A stretch of DNA of 64,000 nucleotides from Nocardioides daedukensis (GTDB lineage Bacteria > Actinomycetota > Actinomycetes > Propionibacteriales > Nocardioidaceae). Every line of letters begins with the position of its first letter. The first letter of the stretch is position 1. Positions 19,782 to 59,083 of the stretch are shown here, piece after piece. The stretch spans positions 1,860,001 to 1,924,000 of the forward strand of contig NZ_JACCAA010000001.1 of the NCBI RefSeq assembly GCF_013408415.1, read 5' to 3'. Made by a program: the position numbers and the translations under genes. The notes beneath the pieces were generated by a model. The model worked only from the letters and a program-made list of their open reading frames with translations. It did no database searches and had not been told where the DNA came from.

Positions 19782-19846
19782 CGTCGACCCGTCGCTTGTT
19801 GACGTTCCACCCGCCGGCCGAGCGTCAACAACTGCCGGGTCGGCGA
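19782..19846. repeat. dispersed 23-bp repeat, locus A: inverted pair after dacB
   Basis: A reverse copy at 19782-19804 (CGTCGACCCGTCGCTTGTTG plus ACG, four changes) and a forward copy at 19822-19846 (GTCAACAAC then TGCCGGGTCGGCGA) face each other across 17 bp. They fold into a stem with a 9-bp inner part (TTGTTGACG/CGTCAACAA) and a 7-bp outer part (CGACCCG/CGGGTCG). The forward copy ends 4 bp from the dacB stop. It is the same family as loci at 43770 and 58540. Confidence 0.85.
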
Positions 19847-19850
19847 GGGG

Positions 19851-21386
19851 TCACGACGAGCAGTGGCAGGAGGCCAGCGCCGCGGTCAGGTCCACCAGCG
19901 CCGCCCGCGCGTCCAGGGTCTTCTCCACCTTCACCCGGTCGGCGACGAAGACGAACGTGAACACGTTGCCGTCCAGGTCGGTGGTGACGCCGGCCAGGCC
20001 GTGCACGCCGGTCAGCGTCCCGGTCTTGGCGCGGACCCGGCCGGCACCGGCCTGGGGCGCCTCGGCATACCGGTTGGCCAACGACCCGGTGAACCCGGCG
20101 ACCGGCAGCCCGGTGATCACCGGGCGCAGCTCGGGGTGCTCGGGCGAGGCAGCCACGGAGAGTACGTCGAGCAGCGTCGAGGCGGTCAGCACGTTGCCGC
20201 GCGAGAGCCCGCTGGCGTCGAGGATCGTGTCGCCGGTGATGTCGACGCCAAGTTGTTGCAGGGTCGTCTCGACGGCGATCGCGCCGCCTTCGAAGCTCGG
20301 CTCGGCGCCGAGCTCGATCGCCACGTGGTGTGCGAGCAGCTCCGCGCCCTCGTTGTCGCTGATCGCGAGCACCCGCTCCACGATCTGCCAGACCGGTGCG
20401 CTGTGCACGACGGCGAGCTCGCTGCCCGGGGTGAGGGCCTGGGTCGAGTCGACGTCCTCGTCGGCCGGCGCCACCTCGGTCGAGGATGGTGCCACGGTCC
20501 GACGCGCTCCGCCGGTGACGGTGATCCCGCGCTTGCCCAGCTCCTGCTTGAACGCGTCGGCGGCAGCCTTGGCCGGGTCGGTCTCGAACCCCCAGCCCCC
20601 TTCCTTGGCTCCCTGGTCGATGAAGAGCGCAGAGATCGGGGAGACCACGGCGTCGGTGACGTAGTCGGCCGGCCAGTCCTCGCTGACGCGTGGACCGGAG
20701 AAGAGCGAGTCGTCGAAGCCGAGCTTGACCGTCGTGGTGCCTGCCTCCTTCAGCGAGGCAGCGGTCCGGGCCGCGAGCGTGACCAGGTCTGCCTGGGCGG
20801 GATAGGCATCCTTCTCGGCCTTGCGCATCAGGTAGGGGTCTCCGCCGCCGACCAGGACGATCTCGTCCGCGCTCGCTCCCACCCGCACCGTGGTGTCGAA
20901 CGTCCGCGCGGAGCCGAGTGCCTCCAGGGCGGCCGCACCGGTGAGGATCTTCATCGTGGAGGCCGGGATGGTCTCGGCGTGCCTGCTCTCGTAGTGGACC
21001 GTGCCGTCCACCCCGCCGATGGCCAGCGTGCGGCGGGGGCCGAACGCCGACGCGGTGGTGTACTTCGAGATGGCGCTGCGCACCTTCGCTGCGCTCACCG
21101 TGCCGCTCGCACCGGCCGGGGCAGCGACCGCGTCCGGGTCCGAGAGCTCCGGGAGGTCCAGTCCCTCGGGCGGTTCGATGGAGGCGGGGCTGGCCGTTCC
21201 CGGCTCGGCCCAACCGAGCTCGACGGCCAGGTCATATTCGAACGAGGCGAACGCGGCGGCGAGCACGACGAGGACGACGCCCACCGGCAGCCATGCTGCG
21301 GAGCGGCTCGGAGGCGGGCGTTTGCGACCGTCCCTGCGTGATCCAGCCACCGAGAATTCCTTCCCCACTTCCACGTTTGCGACCAT
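19851..21386 (-). CDS. dacB: D-alanyl-D-alanine carboxypeptidase/endopeptidase (PBP4, S13 family)
   Basis: Trims or cleaves peptidoglycan cross-links outside the membrane. The 511-residue protein has a cytoplasmic basic start, one signal-anchor helix at about 32-50, then the S13 catalytic triad motifs STMK (143-146), SDN (in [14 protein letters not shown]) and KTG (in RAKTGTLTG). The C-terminus is CHCSS. It heads a minus-strand run into the metalloprotease, tilS and hpt, though the hairpin at 19782-19846 may limit read-through. Confidence 0.93.
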
Positions 21387-29593: not shown

Positions 29594-30630
29594 TCGGAGA
29601 GCCAGGCGGACCTGTTCTCGGCGATCTCTGCGGGCGGCACCGTGTAGGGATCGCTCGGCTGCTCGGCGAACTTCTCCCACGCCTCGGGCAGGGCGACGCT
29701 GTCGTCGACCGGGAAGACGTACATGCTGTCCGGCAGGGCCTTCTGCACGTCCTCGCTGAGCAGGAAGTCGATCAACGCGCGCGCACCCTCGGGGTTGTCC
29801 GCGTTGGCCAGGACGCCGGCATATTCGACCTGCTCGAAGCAGGTGTCGAGCAGGGCTGCGGTCGTCGTCGTGCCGTCATCGGTGACGGTGAAGGCCGGCG
29901 AGGTGTCGTAGGAGACCACGATCGGGCGCTTGCCCTTGTCGCTGGCTCCGGTGAAGTCACCCTCGTAGGCGTCGCTCCAGCCCTGGGTCAGCTTGGCCCC
30001 GTTGGCCATCAGCTTCTTCCAGTACGCCGGCCACTGGTCGCCGTACTCCGCGATCGTGGCGAGCAGGAACGCCATCCCCGGTGTGCTGGTCGACGCGCCG
30101 GGGATGACGAAGAGGTCCTTGTACGCCGGCTCGGTGAGGTCGGCGAGCCGCTTGGGCGCCTTCAGGTCCTTCTCGGCGAACCAGTCGAGGTCGACGTTCA
30201 CGCAGACCGATCCGTGGTCGACCGGGACCATCATCTCGGCGCCCTCGCCCTGGATCCGCAGGCTCTCCGCGCCAGCCGGCAGCTCGGGCTCGTAGGCCTC
30301 GAAGACCTTCTCCTCGATCGCCCGGGAGGCGAAGGTGTTGTCCACACCGAAGGCGACGTCGCCGGTGGGGTTGTTCCGGTTCAGCGCGAGCTCGTTGGTG
30401 AGCGTCCCGCCGTCGCCGGCCGCCTTCACCTTGAGCTGGTGGCCGGAGTCCTCCTCGAACTGCTCGATGAGCTCCTTGGGCAGGTTGAAGGACGAGTGGG
30501 TGACCAGGGTGACGGTGCTGCCGCCCTCGTCGTCGTCTCCGCCCCCGACGAGCGAACAGGACGACAGCGTCGCAGTCGCCAGGAGGGTGGCTGTGGCCGT
30601 GGACAGTGCAGTGCGCAGCGCGCGGTTCAT
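29569..30630 (-). CDS. thiB: thiamine ABC transporter substrate-binding lipoprotein
   Basis: Extracellular thiamine-binding protein of 353 residues. Signal peptide with lipobox LSSC (ATLSSCSLVGG), an acidic linker, then the ThiB/TbpA pattern: THSSFN at the mature start, DVAFGVDNTFASRA, MMVPVDHGSVCVNVD and a STSTPGMAFL loop. A TPP riboswitch ends about eight bases upstream of the ATG, and GGAG precedes the start, so ribosome access is probably gated by TPP. First gene of thiBPQ. Confidence 0.92.
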   Translation of the reverse strand: MNRALRTALSTATATLLATATLSSCSLVGGGDDDEGGSTVTLVTHSSFNLPKELIEQFEEDSGHQLKVKAAGDGGTLTNELALNRNNPTGDVAFGVDNTFASRAIEEKVFEAYEPELPAGAESLRIQGEGAEMMVPVDHGSVCVNVDLDWFAEKDLKAPKRLADLTEPAYKDLFVIPGASTSTPGMAFLLATIAEYGDQWPAYWKKLMANGAKLTQGWSDAYEGDFTGASDKGKRPIVVSYDTSPAFTVTDDGTTTTAALLDTCFEQVEYAGVLANADNPEGARALIDFLLSEDVQKALPDSMYVFPVDDSVALPEAWEKFAEQPSDPYTVPPAEIAENRSAWLSEWTDITSR

Positions 30631-30637
30631 CGTTTCT

Positions 30638-30731
30638 CCGACTCCCTTCGCCGGTGCTAACCGGATCAGGTCCTGAGGGTCTGCGGCGGTTCCGCACTCT
30701 CAGCCCTCCGTCGGAGGGCTCCCCTGTCTGT
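30638..30731 (-). ncRNA. TPP riboswitch (THI element)
   Basis: On the minus strand the sequence runs GACAGGGGAGCCC, then GGGCTGAGAGT, AGACCCTCAGGACCTGATC, CGGTTAGCACCGGCGAAGGGAGTC. These are the conserved TPP-aptamer parts: the CUGAGA loop, the ACCUGAUC/GGUUAGCACC arm and the GCGAAGGGA closing strand. Since the 3' strand ends next to the thiB ribosome site, TPP binding most likely blocks translation initiation. Confidence 0.96.
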
Positions 30732-30885
30732 GCTTGGCAATCTACCCGGTCGGCGACTCCGCGTTTGCGACACCCCGCGACGTGGGGCAGTGTGTGATGA
30801 ACCGGCACCGCGGCCGGGCCACCTGGGGAGGGGCCAGACAGATGAACAGAAAAATGAACGGTCAGCTGAACGGGTACTGCGCACA

Positions 30886-43628: not shown

Positions 43629-43704
43629 TGGAGCCGCCTATCGGAATCGAACCGATGACCTAATCATTACGAGTGATTCGCTCTACCGACTGAGCTAAGG
43701 CGGC
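43629..43704 (-). tRNA. tRNA-Thr (anticodon CGT)
   Basis: On the minus strand the cloverleaf is complete: acceptor GCCGCCT/AGGCGGC, D arm TTAGCTCAGTCGGTAGAGC, anticodon arm AATCA-CTCGTAA-TGATT with anticodon CGT, and T arm TCGGTTCGATTCCGA. The 3' CCA is encoded (43631-43629). It reads ACG codons. No pseudogene features. Confidence 0.98.
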
Positions 43705-43769: not shown

Positions 43770-43855
43770 CGTCGACCCGGCAGTTGTTGACGCGAGATGG
43801 TGTCAACAACTGCCGGGTCGGCGGGATCGAGTGTCAGCAAGTGCCGGGTCGGCGA
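43770..43855. repeat. dispersed 23-bp repeat, locus B: one reverse and two forward copies
   Basis: Reverse copy 43770-43793 (CGACCCGGCAGTTGTTGACG core) and forward copies 43800-43824 and 43831-43855, whose GTCAAC/GTCAGC cores are exactly 31 bp apart. The reverse and first forward copies form a hairpin. The last copy ends 9 bp from the stop of the 66-residue zinc-protein gene. The region 43705-43864 holds nothing else I can name. Confidence 0.87.
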
Positions 43856-43864
43856 GATGCGGGG

Positions 43865-44065
43865 TCAGGCAGACGCGGACGCGGACGCGGTGGCGGTGAC
43901 GGTCGGGGCCTGGGCGTTCTTCATGCCCTCGTGCCACAGCTGCTCCGCGCCGCACCAGCAGGTGTAGGTCATCGCGACGACGCCGTCGACCTTGGCCATG
44001 CCGGTGACCTGGCTCGGGAAGATCAGCATCTTCTTGTCGCAGTGCGTGCAGTGGTTGACGAACAT
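43865..44065 (-). CDS. small zinc-ribbon-like protein
   Basis: A 66-residue protein with CTHC near residue 6-9 and CWC near 36-38, enough cysteines (with a nearby histidine) to hold one zinc in a ribbon. The C-terminus is a low-complexity Thr/Ala/Ser run (TATASASASA). A strong GGAGG ribosome site precedes the ATG, so the gene is probably expressed. Function unknown; it diverges from the LysR gene. Confidence 0.68.
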   Translation of the reverse strand: MFVNHCTHCDKKMLIFPSQVTGMAKVDGVVAMTYTCWCGAEQLWHEGMKNAQAPTVTATASASASA

Positions 44066-56138: not shown

Positions 56139-58442
56139 TCAGGCCTCGATCGCGACCGGGCGCCGCTTCGAGATCCAGACCGCGACCACGATGATCGCCG
56201 TGGCCACCAGGGCGATCGCGATCGAGATCGGCCGGTTCGCGTTCTCACCCATGTTGAGCGAGATGATCGCCCCGACGATCAGCAACGAGACCAGGTTCAT
56301 CACCTTGATCAGCGGGTTGATCGCGGGACCCGCGGTGTCCTTGAACGGGTCGCCGACGGTGTCACCGATGATCGTGGCCTCGTGGGCCGGCGATCCCTTG
56401 CCACCGTGGTTGCCGTCCTCGACCAGCTTCTTGGCGTTGTCCCAGGCACCACCGGCGTTGGCGAGGAAGACCGCCATCAGGGTGCCGGAGCCGATCGCGC
56501 CGGCGAGGAAGCCGGCCAGGGGTCCGACGCCGAGTCCGAACCCGACCGCGATCGGCGCCAAGATCGCCAGAATGCCGGGTGTGGCCAGCTCGCGCAGGGA
56601 GTCCTTGGTGACGATGTCGACGACCTTGCCATATTCGGGTCGACCCGTTCCCTCCATGATTCCGGGGATCTCGCGGAACTGACGACGTACCTCGTAGACC
56701 ACCGCCCCGGCAGCCCGGCCGACGGCGTTGATCGCGAGGCCGGAGAAGAGGAAGACCACCGCGACGCCGATCAGCAGCCCGACCAGGACGTCGGGGCTGA
56801 AGACGAAGAACGAGGTGAACAGGTCCGTCGACTCCTCCTGGCTGAGCTTGGAGTCCTTGACCGCGTCGATCGCCGACCCGATGTAGGAGCCGAACAGGGC
56901 GCTCGCCGCGAGCACCGCCGTGGCGATGGCGATGCCCTTGGTGATCGCCTTGGTCGTGTTGCCGACCGCGTCGAGCTCGGTGAGGATCTGCGCGCCTTCC
57001 TCGCTGACGTCGCCCGACATCTCGGCGATGCCCTGGGCGTTGTCGGAGACCGGGCCGAAGGTGTCCATCGCGACGATCACGCCGACGGTGGTGAGCAGGC
57101 CGCATCCGGCCAGGGCGACCGCGAACAGCGCGATCGAGAGCGAGCCGGAGCCGAGCAGGAACGCCCCGAAGACGGCCGCGCCGATCACCAGCGTGGTGTA
57201 GACCGCGGACTCGAACCCGACCGAGAGCCCGGAGAGGATCACCGTTGCCGCACCGGTGAGGGAGGTGGTCCCGACGTCCTTGACCGGCTTGTGCTCGGTG
57301 CCGGTGAAGTAGCCGGTGAGGGCGAGGATCACGGCGGCCAGGACGATCCCGATCAGCACCGCGGCTGCGGCGATCAGGGCGGGGTTTCCGTCGGGCGCGG
57401 AGGTGGCGCCGGCCAGAGTGTCGAGGGCTGCGACCTCGTCGCTGACGCCGAGCTCGCCGAACGAGGTCGGCAGATAGGCGAAGGACAGGATCGTGCATCC
57501 CACCGCGGCGATCGCGGCGGAGATGTAGAAGGCCCGGTTGATCGTGGTGAGTCCGTTCTCGCCCGGGCGCGGCTTGCACAGATAGATCCCGGCGACGGCG
57601 GTGAGTGCCCCGACGGCCGGGATCAACAGCGGGAAGACCAGGCCCTTGTCGCCGAATGCCGCGGCGCCGAGGATCAGCGCGGCGACCAGGGTCACGGCGT
57701 ACGACTCGAAGAGGTCGGCGGCCATTCCGGCGCAGTCACCCACGTTGTCGCCCACGTTGTCCGCGATGGTCGCGGCGTTGCGCGGGTCGTCCTCGGGGAT
57801 GTTGTTCTCCACCTTTCCGACCAGGTCGGCGCCGACGTCGGCGGCCTTGGTGAAGATGCCGCCACCGACGCGCATGAACATCGCCAGCAGCGCGGCGCCG
57901 AAGCCGAAGCCCTCGAGCACGTGCGGTGCCTCGTCGCGATAGAGGAGCACGACGACGCTGGCGCCGAGCAGGCCCAGGCCGACGGTCAGCATGCCGACCA
58001 TCGCGCCGGTACGGAAGCCGATCTTCATCGCCGGGTCACGGCCCTCGGCGTTGGCTGCGGCGGCGACGCGGAGGTTGGACTGGACGGCCAGGGACATGCC
58101 CAGGTAGCCGACCGCGGCCGAGAAGCCCGCCCCGACCAGGAAGAAGAGCGACCTGCCGATCCTCACGGCCATGTCATCGGCCGGCAGGGCCAGGAGCAGG
58201 AAGAAGGCAACCGCGGCGAAGATGCCGAGGGTGCGGAACTGTCGGGTCAGGTAGGCGTTGGCGCCTTCCTGGACTGCTAGGGCGATCCGCTTCATGTTGT
58301 CGGTGCCTTCACCGGCGGCCAGCACCTCGGACCGGAACATCGCGGCGAGGCCGAGCGCAACGAGCGCAATCACGGCGACGACGATGACCAGGACGAGATT
58401 GCCTCCGGAGACATCCACAGCTGCGGGGTGAATCCCGGGCAT
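56139..58442 (-). CDS. hppA: K+-independent proton-translocating inorganic pyrophosphatase
   Basis: Membrane H+ pump using pyrophosphate. The 767-residue protein has about 16 helices and the substrate segments DNVGDNVGDCAGMAADLFESY and its neighbours (DVGADLVGKVE). GNTTKAITKG carries lysine at the position that distinguishes the K+-independent class. Start ATG at 58442 with GGAGAG upstream; further ATG codons to 58496 are unlikely. It likely recovers energy from biosynthetic PPi while ppa removes the rest. Confidence 0.96.
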   Translation of the reverse strand: MPGIHPAAVDVSGGNLVLVIVVAVIALVALGLAAMFRSEVLAAGEGTDNMKRIALAVQEGANAYLTRQFRTLGIFAAVAFFLLLALPADDMAVRIGRSLFFLVGAGFSAAVGYLGMSLAVQSNLRVAAAANAEGRDPAMKIGFRTGAMVGMLTVGLGLLGASVVVLLYRDEAPHVLEGFGFGAALLAMFMRVGGGIFTKAADVGADLVGKVENNIPEDDPRNAATIADNVGDNVGDCAGMAADLFESYAVTLVAALILGAAAFGDKGLVFPLLIPAVGALTAVAGIYLCKPRPGENGLTTINRAFYISAAIAAVGCTILSFAYLPTSFGELGVSDEVAALDTLAGATSAPDGNPALIAAAAVLIGIVLAAVILALTGYFTGTEHKPVKDVGTTSLTGAATVILSGLSVGFESAVYTTLVIGAAVFGAFLLGSGSLSIALFAVALAGCGLLTTVGVIVAMDTFGPVSDNAQGIAEMSGDVSEEGAQILTELDAVGNTTKAITKGIAIATAVLAASALFGSYIGSAIDAVKDSKLSQEESTDLFTSFFVFSPDVLVGLLIGVAVVFLFSGLAINAVGRAAGAVVYEVRRQFREIPGIMEGTGRPEYGKVVDIVTKDSLRELATPGILAILAPIAVGFGLGVGPLAGFLAGAIGSGTLMAVFLANAGGAWDNAKKLVEDGNHGGKGSPAHEATIIGDTVGDPFKDTAGPAINPLIKVMNLVSLLIVGAIISLNMGENANRPISIAIALVATAIIVVAVWISKRRPVAIEA

Positions 58443-58528: not shown

Positions 58529-58539
58529 CCAATCCCCCA

Positions 58540-58740
58540 CGCCGACCCGGCAGTTGTTGACGCTGCACCACGCCGGATCACGCCGAGTCGGCAGTTGTTG
58601 ACGCCCCCACCTCGCCGGATCACGACGAGTCGGCAGTTGTTGACGCTGCGAAGGCGTCAACAAGTGCCGGGTCGACGAAACGCGCGGTCAACAAGTGCCG
58701 GGTCGGCGAAGCATCCGGTCAACAGCTGCCGGGTCGGCGA
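58540..58740. repeat. dispersed 23-bp repeat, locus C: array of three reverse and three forward copies
   Basis: Reverse copies at 58540-58563, 58581-58604 and 58623-58646; forward copies at 58654-58678, 58685-58709 and 58715-58740. Cores are 41 and 42 bp apart in the reverse set and 31 and 31 bp apart in the forward set. The two sets meet at 58646/58654 and form a hairpin with 18 of 21 positions paired (loop TGCGAAG). The last copy ends 7 bp after (minus strand) the STAS stop. The 305-bp gap 58443-58747 contains this array and the hppA promoter only. Confidence 0.9.
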
Positions 58741-58747
58741 AACGAGA

Positions 58748-59083
58748 TCAGGAAGTGGTGGCGGCTTCTGCGGTCTCGTGGATCGTGAAGACCTTCGCCA
58801 GTCCGGTGATCCGGAAGATCTTGAGGAGGCGCTCCTGGTTGCAGACCAGCTGGAGCGAACCGTCGTGGGCGCGCACCTTCTTCAGTCCGCCGACCAGAAC
58901 GCCGAGGCCGGTGGAGTCGAGGAACTCGACCGCGGCCATGTCGATGATGATGTGGTAGACGCCGTCACCGACGAGCTCGGTGATCTTGTCCCGCAGTTTG
59001 GGCGCGGTGTAGACGTCGATCTCGCCCTCGACCGCGACGATGGTGGCGCCATCGGTATCGCGCGTCACAAGCGTCAGGTCCAC
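58748..59083 (-). CDS. STAS-domain anti-anti-sigma factor
   Basis: A 111-residue SpoIIAA-like protein: [15 protein letters not shown], then the phosphorylation-site loop [12 protein letters not shown] with Ser57. In the partner-switch scheme, dephosphorylated STAS frees a sigma factor from its anti-sigma kinase. No anti-sigma kinase or sigma factor gene is in the window. Start is GTG at 59083, with GGAGGAG five bases upstream. Confidence 0.9.

Follow-up and report, generated by a model that had tools for sequence, protein, structure and literature searches.

Helically phased, polar repeat arrays behind genes of Nocardioides daedukensis and related species: a possible protein-bound boundary of transcription units

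Short repeats dispersed through bacterial genomes are usually interpreted as remnants of transposons or as hairpins formed in RNA, and some DNA uptake sequences of the Neisseriaceae occur as inverted pairs after genes. Among the described systems, the closest to the arrays reported here are the REPs of the GTAG and CGTC types (PMC3733652, PMC2817692), repeats of 20-40 bp that combine a tag with a small palindromic stem-loop, reach tens to hundreds of copies, lie outside genes in mostly downstream or convergent positions, form inverted pairs and are in some cases found in-frame within genes. GTAG-type REPs are accompanied by a RAYT transposase, the CGTC families have no dedicated transposase, head-to-tail dimers are rare or negligible in REPs, and in BIMEs the orientation of the repeats alternates. 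Rickettsia palindromic elements (RPEs; PMC10969869) are elements of ~150 bp that are inserted in-frame in conserved genes and add a characteristic peptide. The Neisseriaceae DNA uptake sequences (PMC3630211) are short dispersed motifs with species dialects, and the TTF-I/Sal-box arrays behind mammalian rRNA genes (PMC3772059) are clustered, cooperatively bound sites that end transcription.

The arrays of N. daedukensis (genome G000, 3.81 Mb) are filed here as a REP/BIME-like family outside the described ones. With REPs they share a short unit (22 bp, GTCAACAASTGCCGGGTCGGCG) in which a tag stands beside a small stem-loop, the range of copy numbers, the mostly downstream or convergent extragenic positions, the inverted pairs and some in-frame copies. 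They differ from REPs in the tag, which is GTCAAC and not an unpaired GTAG or CGTC (a preceding C, found in 125 of 210 G000 units, ~60%, gives CGTC), and in their actinobacterial host genus, a group unmentioned in the GTAG/CGTC survey (PMC3733652). Head-to-tail tandems dominate, there are hardly any pairs whose tags lie on the outside, and in contrast to BIMEs the orientation is sorted (<<<>>>), with '><' at 3 of 147 steps. A REP-associated tyrosine transposase, considered as a mobiliser in the initial annotation, finds no support: the RAYT/Y1 family (PF01797), expected beside GTAG-type REPs, is unmatched in G000 and 38 relatives (0/39) and in 12 further, mostly array-rich species (0/12), while control genomes respond; the CGTC families likewise lack a dedicated transposase. 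The arrays resemble RPEs as palindromic repeats that lie in-frame in conserved genes and add a characteristic peptide, and differ from them in being built of a 21-33 bp repeat that is mostly placed behind genes with helical spacing. Like the DNA uptake sequences, the unit has species dialects; unlike them, it stands in phased arrays, at about one copy per 20 kb in G000, and is absent from most species of its genus. The comparison with TTF-I/Sal-box arrays is functional only; that system is eukaryotic, confined to a single locus type and served by a known protein, and homology is not claimed. The initial annotation knew of no described family with the sequence of the unit, and none was found in the open-access papers searched.

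The window, a 64-kb stretch of the N. daedukensis genome (contig NZ_JACCAA010000001.1, positions 1,860,001 to 1,924,000), holds 11 copies of the unit at ≤3 mismatches, compared with a chance expectation of 0.00 and with 0 copies in all 100 shuffles, and these copies form three arrays (Table 1). The positions of the repeat and the spacings of its reverse and forward sets agree with the initial annotation; across the inverted junctions the spacings are 33, 32 and 42 bp. The same annotation placed the clusters after minus-strand stop codons; they do lie downstream of such stops at short distances, but on the plus strand they end, rather than begin, beside the stop. An Rfam search of the window gave no match at the arrays, the sole matches being one tRNA and one TPP riboswitch; the array at 43770 is located ~66 bp upstream of the minus-strand tRNA.

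Table 1. Repeat units and neighbouring features in the window (coordinates of the 64-kb stretch).
Feature	Position	Strand	Remarks
Unit, left arm outermost, first array (58540)	58540..58561	-	0 mismatches; GTCAACAACTGCCGGGTCGGCG
Unit, left arm, first array	58581..58602	-	2 mismatches; spacing 41; GTCAACAACTGCCGACTCGGCG
Unit, left arm innermost, first array	58623..58644	-	3 mismatches; spacing 42
Unit, right arm innermost, first array	58656..58677	+	1 mismatch; 33 to inverted partner
Unit, right arm, first array	58687..58708	+	0 mismatches; spacing 31
Unit, right arm outermost, first array	58718..58739	+	1 mismatch; spacing 31; STAS stop codon at 8 bp
Unit, left arm, second array (43770)	43770..43791	-	1 mismatch
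Unit, right arm, second array	43802..43823	+	0 mismatches; 32 to inverted partner
Unit, right arm, second array	43833..43854	+	1 mismatch; spacing 31; stop codon of 66-aa ORF at 10 bp
Unit, diverged, left arm, third array (19782)	19782..19803	-	3 mismatches
Unit, right arm, third array	19824..19845	+	0 mismatches; 42 to inverted partner; dacB stop codon at 5 bp
STAS-domain gene (PF01740), array at its 3' end	58748..59083	-	Pfam match
H+-translocating pyrophosphatase gene	56139..58442	-	conserved promoter region between the 58540 array and the start codon
dacB-type D-Ala-D-Ala carboxypeptidase gene (Peptidase_S13), upstream of the 19782 array	19851..21386	-	
66-aa Cys-rich ORF, zinc-ribbon-like by eye, upstream of the 43770 array	43865..44065	-	without Pfam match
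tRNA	43632..43704	-	
TPP riboswitch	30626..30735	-	Rfam RF00059

A genome-wide search, proposed in the initial annotation, confirms its view of the repeat as a dispersed family: at ≤3 mismatches the unit has 196 copies in G000, versus 4 for the backwards-read control. Across 216 genomes of the genus, a relaxed pattern gave 195 copies in G000, 201 in G124, 172 in G226, 102 in G003, 53 in G137, 39 in G230, 37 in G158 and 29 in G178, and the majority of the genomes had few copies, at or near background. A second relaxed pattern gave 287 copies in G124 and 133 in G137, and the counts for related dialects in several other Nocardioides range from roughly 40 to 290. Named matches of the relaxed pattern concentrate in this genus (N. 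ungokensis, Nocardioides sp. Soil797, N. currus and N. pelophilus), and among 392 genomes of the order only background was found outside it, save for seven forward-only matches in G305, a member of another genus of the same family; these seven forward and zero reverse matches are possibly a tandem repeat within one gene. Phage and plasmid collections searched with the unit gave nothing convincing. Every array-rich species has its own version of the unit, or dialect, such as GTCAACAASTGCCGGGTCGGCG in G000, GTCAACACGTGCCGRSTCGGCG in G003, GTCAACSAGCGCCGACTCGGCG in G124 and N. ungokensis, and GTCAACWCGTGCCGACTCGGCG in Soil797; the outer parts, GTCAAC and GCCGNNTCGGCG, are common to the dialects, and most of the difference falls on bases 7-10. 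A two-unit array at ~202836-202878 of G000 (stretch L063) is in the G003 and Soil797 dialect (GTCAACACGTGCCGGCTCGGCG); Soil797 has an array at that site too, and the G000 array either survives from an older dialect or was transferred. A divergent subfamily of CAACAAYTGCMGGTTCGACG-like units in contiguous 22-bp tandem was observed at ~2998310-2998515 of G000 (~810-1020 of stretch L050).

Array architecture was analysed in 860 kb of G000, a set of stretches mostly picked around copies and hence not an estimate of density, which contains 63 clusters made of 210 units. Within a cluster, reverse units nearly always precede forward units, so that the GTCAAC ends meet in the middle; the arms of one array can be unequal in length, and either arm may be absent. 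Most direct neighbours stand 31 bp from each other and others group at 22, 41-44 and 51-53 bp, and inverted neighbours are separated by 32-33, 41-43 or 20-24 bp. G124, G003 and N. ungokensis show these groups again; G137 has a contiguous 21-bp tandem. Taken over direct and inverted pairs of several species, the spacings fall near 21, 31-33, 42-44, 52-54 and 63-65 bp, which correspond to whole turns of B-DNA. For 60 spacings from which recent duplicates and the modal class had been removed, the Rayleigh R at 10.5 bp is 0.71, matched by 0 of 2000 random sets, a signal that may be overestimated if several spacings derive from old duplications that went unrecognised; for 98 inverted pairs R is 0.85. 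The helical phasing noticed in the initial annotation is upheld by these tests in several species. The linkers between G000 units are mostly unrelated to one another, and after tandem duplication the units retain greater similarity than the linkers in 17 of 20 triplets in G000 and in 21 of 28 in G124; what is kept constant is therefore the site rather than the repeat as a whole.

Genes were called from codon usage with a simple program that overlooks RNA genes and some of the short ones; on these calls, the median distance between a cluster and a stop codon is 9 bp. The G000 set includes 53 intergenic clusters, 31 of them convergent and 5 divergent, convergent gaps being only ~1/5 of all intergenic gaps. 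For arrays in tandem gene pairs, the upstream stop is nearer than the downstream start in 36 of 41. Because palindromic arrays point at a stop by construction, polarity can be tested with one-armed arrays only; among those located ≤20 bp from a stop, G137 excluded, the unit points at the stop in 17 of 18. In G137, which has in-gene arrays, there is no polarity (3 toward the stop, 4 away). Between convergent genes, the part of the gap outside the array measures ≤30 bp in 37 of 69 pairs, which leaves little room for another terminator. The place behind stops and the filling of convergent gaps together suggest a boundary to transcription. The frequency of convergent positions would also be expected of a topological element, with sites at which DNA gyrase or a nucleoid protein binds or cleaves and which take up supercoils where genes converge, a role suggested for E. 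coli BIME-2, to which gyrase binds (PMC2817692). We consider this very improbable, because the arrays also stand, in polar orientation, behind single tandem genes, and because a general topological need is not expected in some species only. The genes beside divergent-gap arrays, considered as candidates for an autoregulated factor, showed nothing unusual on visual inspection (metal ABC transporter, glycyl-tRNA synthetase, MMPL-type transporter and others), and this candidate was rejected.

Palindromic arms directly behind stop codons also call to mind an element acting at the RNA level, with both arms folding into a long transcript hairpin that ends or stabilises the mRNA from either side. The minus-strand RNA of 58536-58745 does fold at -120.8 kcal/mol (z -6.8), and the best post-stop hairpins are somewhat stronger with arrays (median -22.4 vs -19.4). 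However, in G000 the similarity of inverted partners does not exceed that of direct neighbours, and in G124, G003 and G230 it is clearly lower, G158 alone showing the opposite, which argues that pairing is not what is preserved; compensatory pairing between the arms was not seen in most species compared. Moreover, one-armed arrays, which are common, are unable to form the long hairpin, and helical phasing plays no part in RNA. Judged as intrinsic terminators, the arrays have the GC hairpin and lack the U-tract, with ≥5 T in 9 nt behind 3.5% of inner hairpins. An RNA-level element thus appears quite improbable. The initial annotation's 'family of terminators' retains its terminator-like position and is weakened in the ordinary sense of the term by the missing U-tract and by arm pairing that is not specially kept. 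The unit's own stem, GCCG-NNT-CGGC, has only 4-5 bp; the GCCG-GGT-CGGC mini-hairpin described in that annotation is present, but it is broken in the common subtypes TGACGGGTCGGCG and GGGTCGACG.

Comparison of species pairs revealed 15 array pairs at orthologous gene ends. Orthologues of array-bearing genes bear arrays with an odds ratio of 21 relative to other genes of the same stretches, a figure in which the pairs are not independent and both flanks of one array can count, and 131 of the 149 units at shared orthologous sites are in the dialect of their own genome. At the 3' end of the STAS gene, the G003 orthologue has an array like that of G000, in the G003 dialect; in 28 other species the locus has no array, and an ordinary GC hairpin is seen by eye in several of them. 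Where orthologues have no array, testing for ordinary terminators gave no significant result (median -23.4 vs -19.9 kcal/mol, p 0.13). Other repeats occur behind this gene as well. In G029 (L262, L263, ~1490-1600) the palindromic repeat TGCAGGTTTCACCGGTCGACCGGTGAAACCTG, with 2 exact copies in the genus, lies once behind STAS and once elsewhere with shared flanks, and was rejected as part of the phased-array family; in G031 (L250) a long direct repeat is found downstream of STAS, with a stretch like AACCTTCTCACTTCTCGGCCTTTGCAACGCCCGAGAAGTGAGG present twice.

The best-supported reading, to which we assign a probability of roughly 0.4, takes each array as a polar and helically phased set of protein-binding sites that delimits transcription units; we infer the protein, its binding and its effect on transcription. 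The unit would be a directional site for a putative sequence-specific DNA-binding protein; its copies, arranged as a single arm or as two, would share one helical face, with the CGGCG end of each arm toward the stop codon. By binding cooperatively, the protein would set up a boundary where transcription units end, stopping or releasing RNA polymerase that comes from the gene and shielding convergent neighbours from each other. Arms would lengthen or shorten by tandem duplication, with occasional spread to new sites, and the unit would drift jointly with the protein, resulting in one dialect per genome. Why units are phased and polar, why the site stays constant between freely changing linkers and why dialects exist would all be accounted for by a DNA-bound protein. 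From their spacing and order through to their polarity and dialects, the arrays look like DNA that is read by a protein at gene ends, and the protein-binding array that was one option of the initial annotation is, judged from sequence, likely. The boundary is further supported by the excess of copies over the control, the proximity to stops, the shared orthologous sites, the filled convergent gaps and the STAS arrays at a place where other species show an ordinary hairpin. A terminator function is suggested by position rather than by transcripts. Counted against a boundary are the absence of arrays from most Nocardioides, which makes such a role dispensable at the level of the genus, the in-gene arrays and missing polarity of G137, and the non-significant terminator test in array-less orthologues. 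More speculative, and on balance unlikely, is a bacterial counterpart of roadblock terminators, in which a putative co-evolving protein would polymerise on one DNA face over the polar arrays and, with no need of a U-tract hairpin, end transcription behind dozens of genes. Discovery of a bound protein would reveal a new bacterial way of ending genes and would explain how a repeat keeps its places while its sequence changes.

The main rival to such a boundary is selfish DNA tolerated at gene ends: a palindromic repeat like REPs or RPEs, devoid of host function and spread by some enzyme, that survives mainly behind genes as selection removes other insertions. We regard it as a serious possibility. 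It fits the patchy distribution among species, the preference of REP families in general for convergent and downstream positions (PMC3733652) and the in-frame arrays in conserved genes, as described for RPEs (PMC10969869). It does not predict the phasing, the strict <<<>>> order or the one-armed polarity, nor a unit kept over its linker or the replacement of dialects at shared orthologous sites. Should no bound protein be found, the arrays would still be a well-defined REP-like family of an actinobacterial genus, mobilised by some putative enzyme. In-frame arrays are found in MiaB, RsmB and others in G137 and in CydDC, MenE and a Mg-chelatase-like ATPase in G000. The in-gene unit copies translate as ESALVD or STSADS; the arrays occupy loops or linkers in all of these named proteins except MenE, in which the array lies within the domain. 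The MiaB loop that holds the array is short or unrelated, and without a unit array, in nine other species. By analogy with RPEs, these in-frame arrays suggest that the repeat is capable of moving. Two in-frame arrays are also present in a gene at L202:8431-11922 (-), which encodes a 1164-aa protein, Fe-S oxidoreductase-like by eye, with a long tail of GGSLFD repeats.
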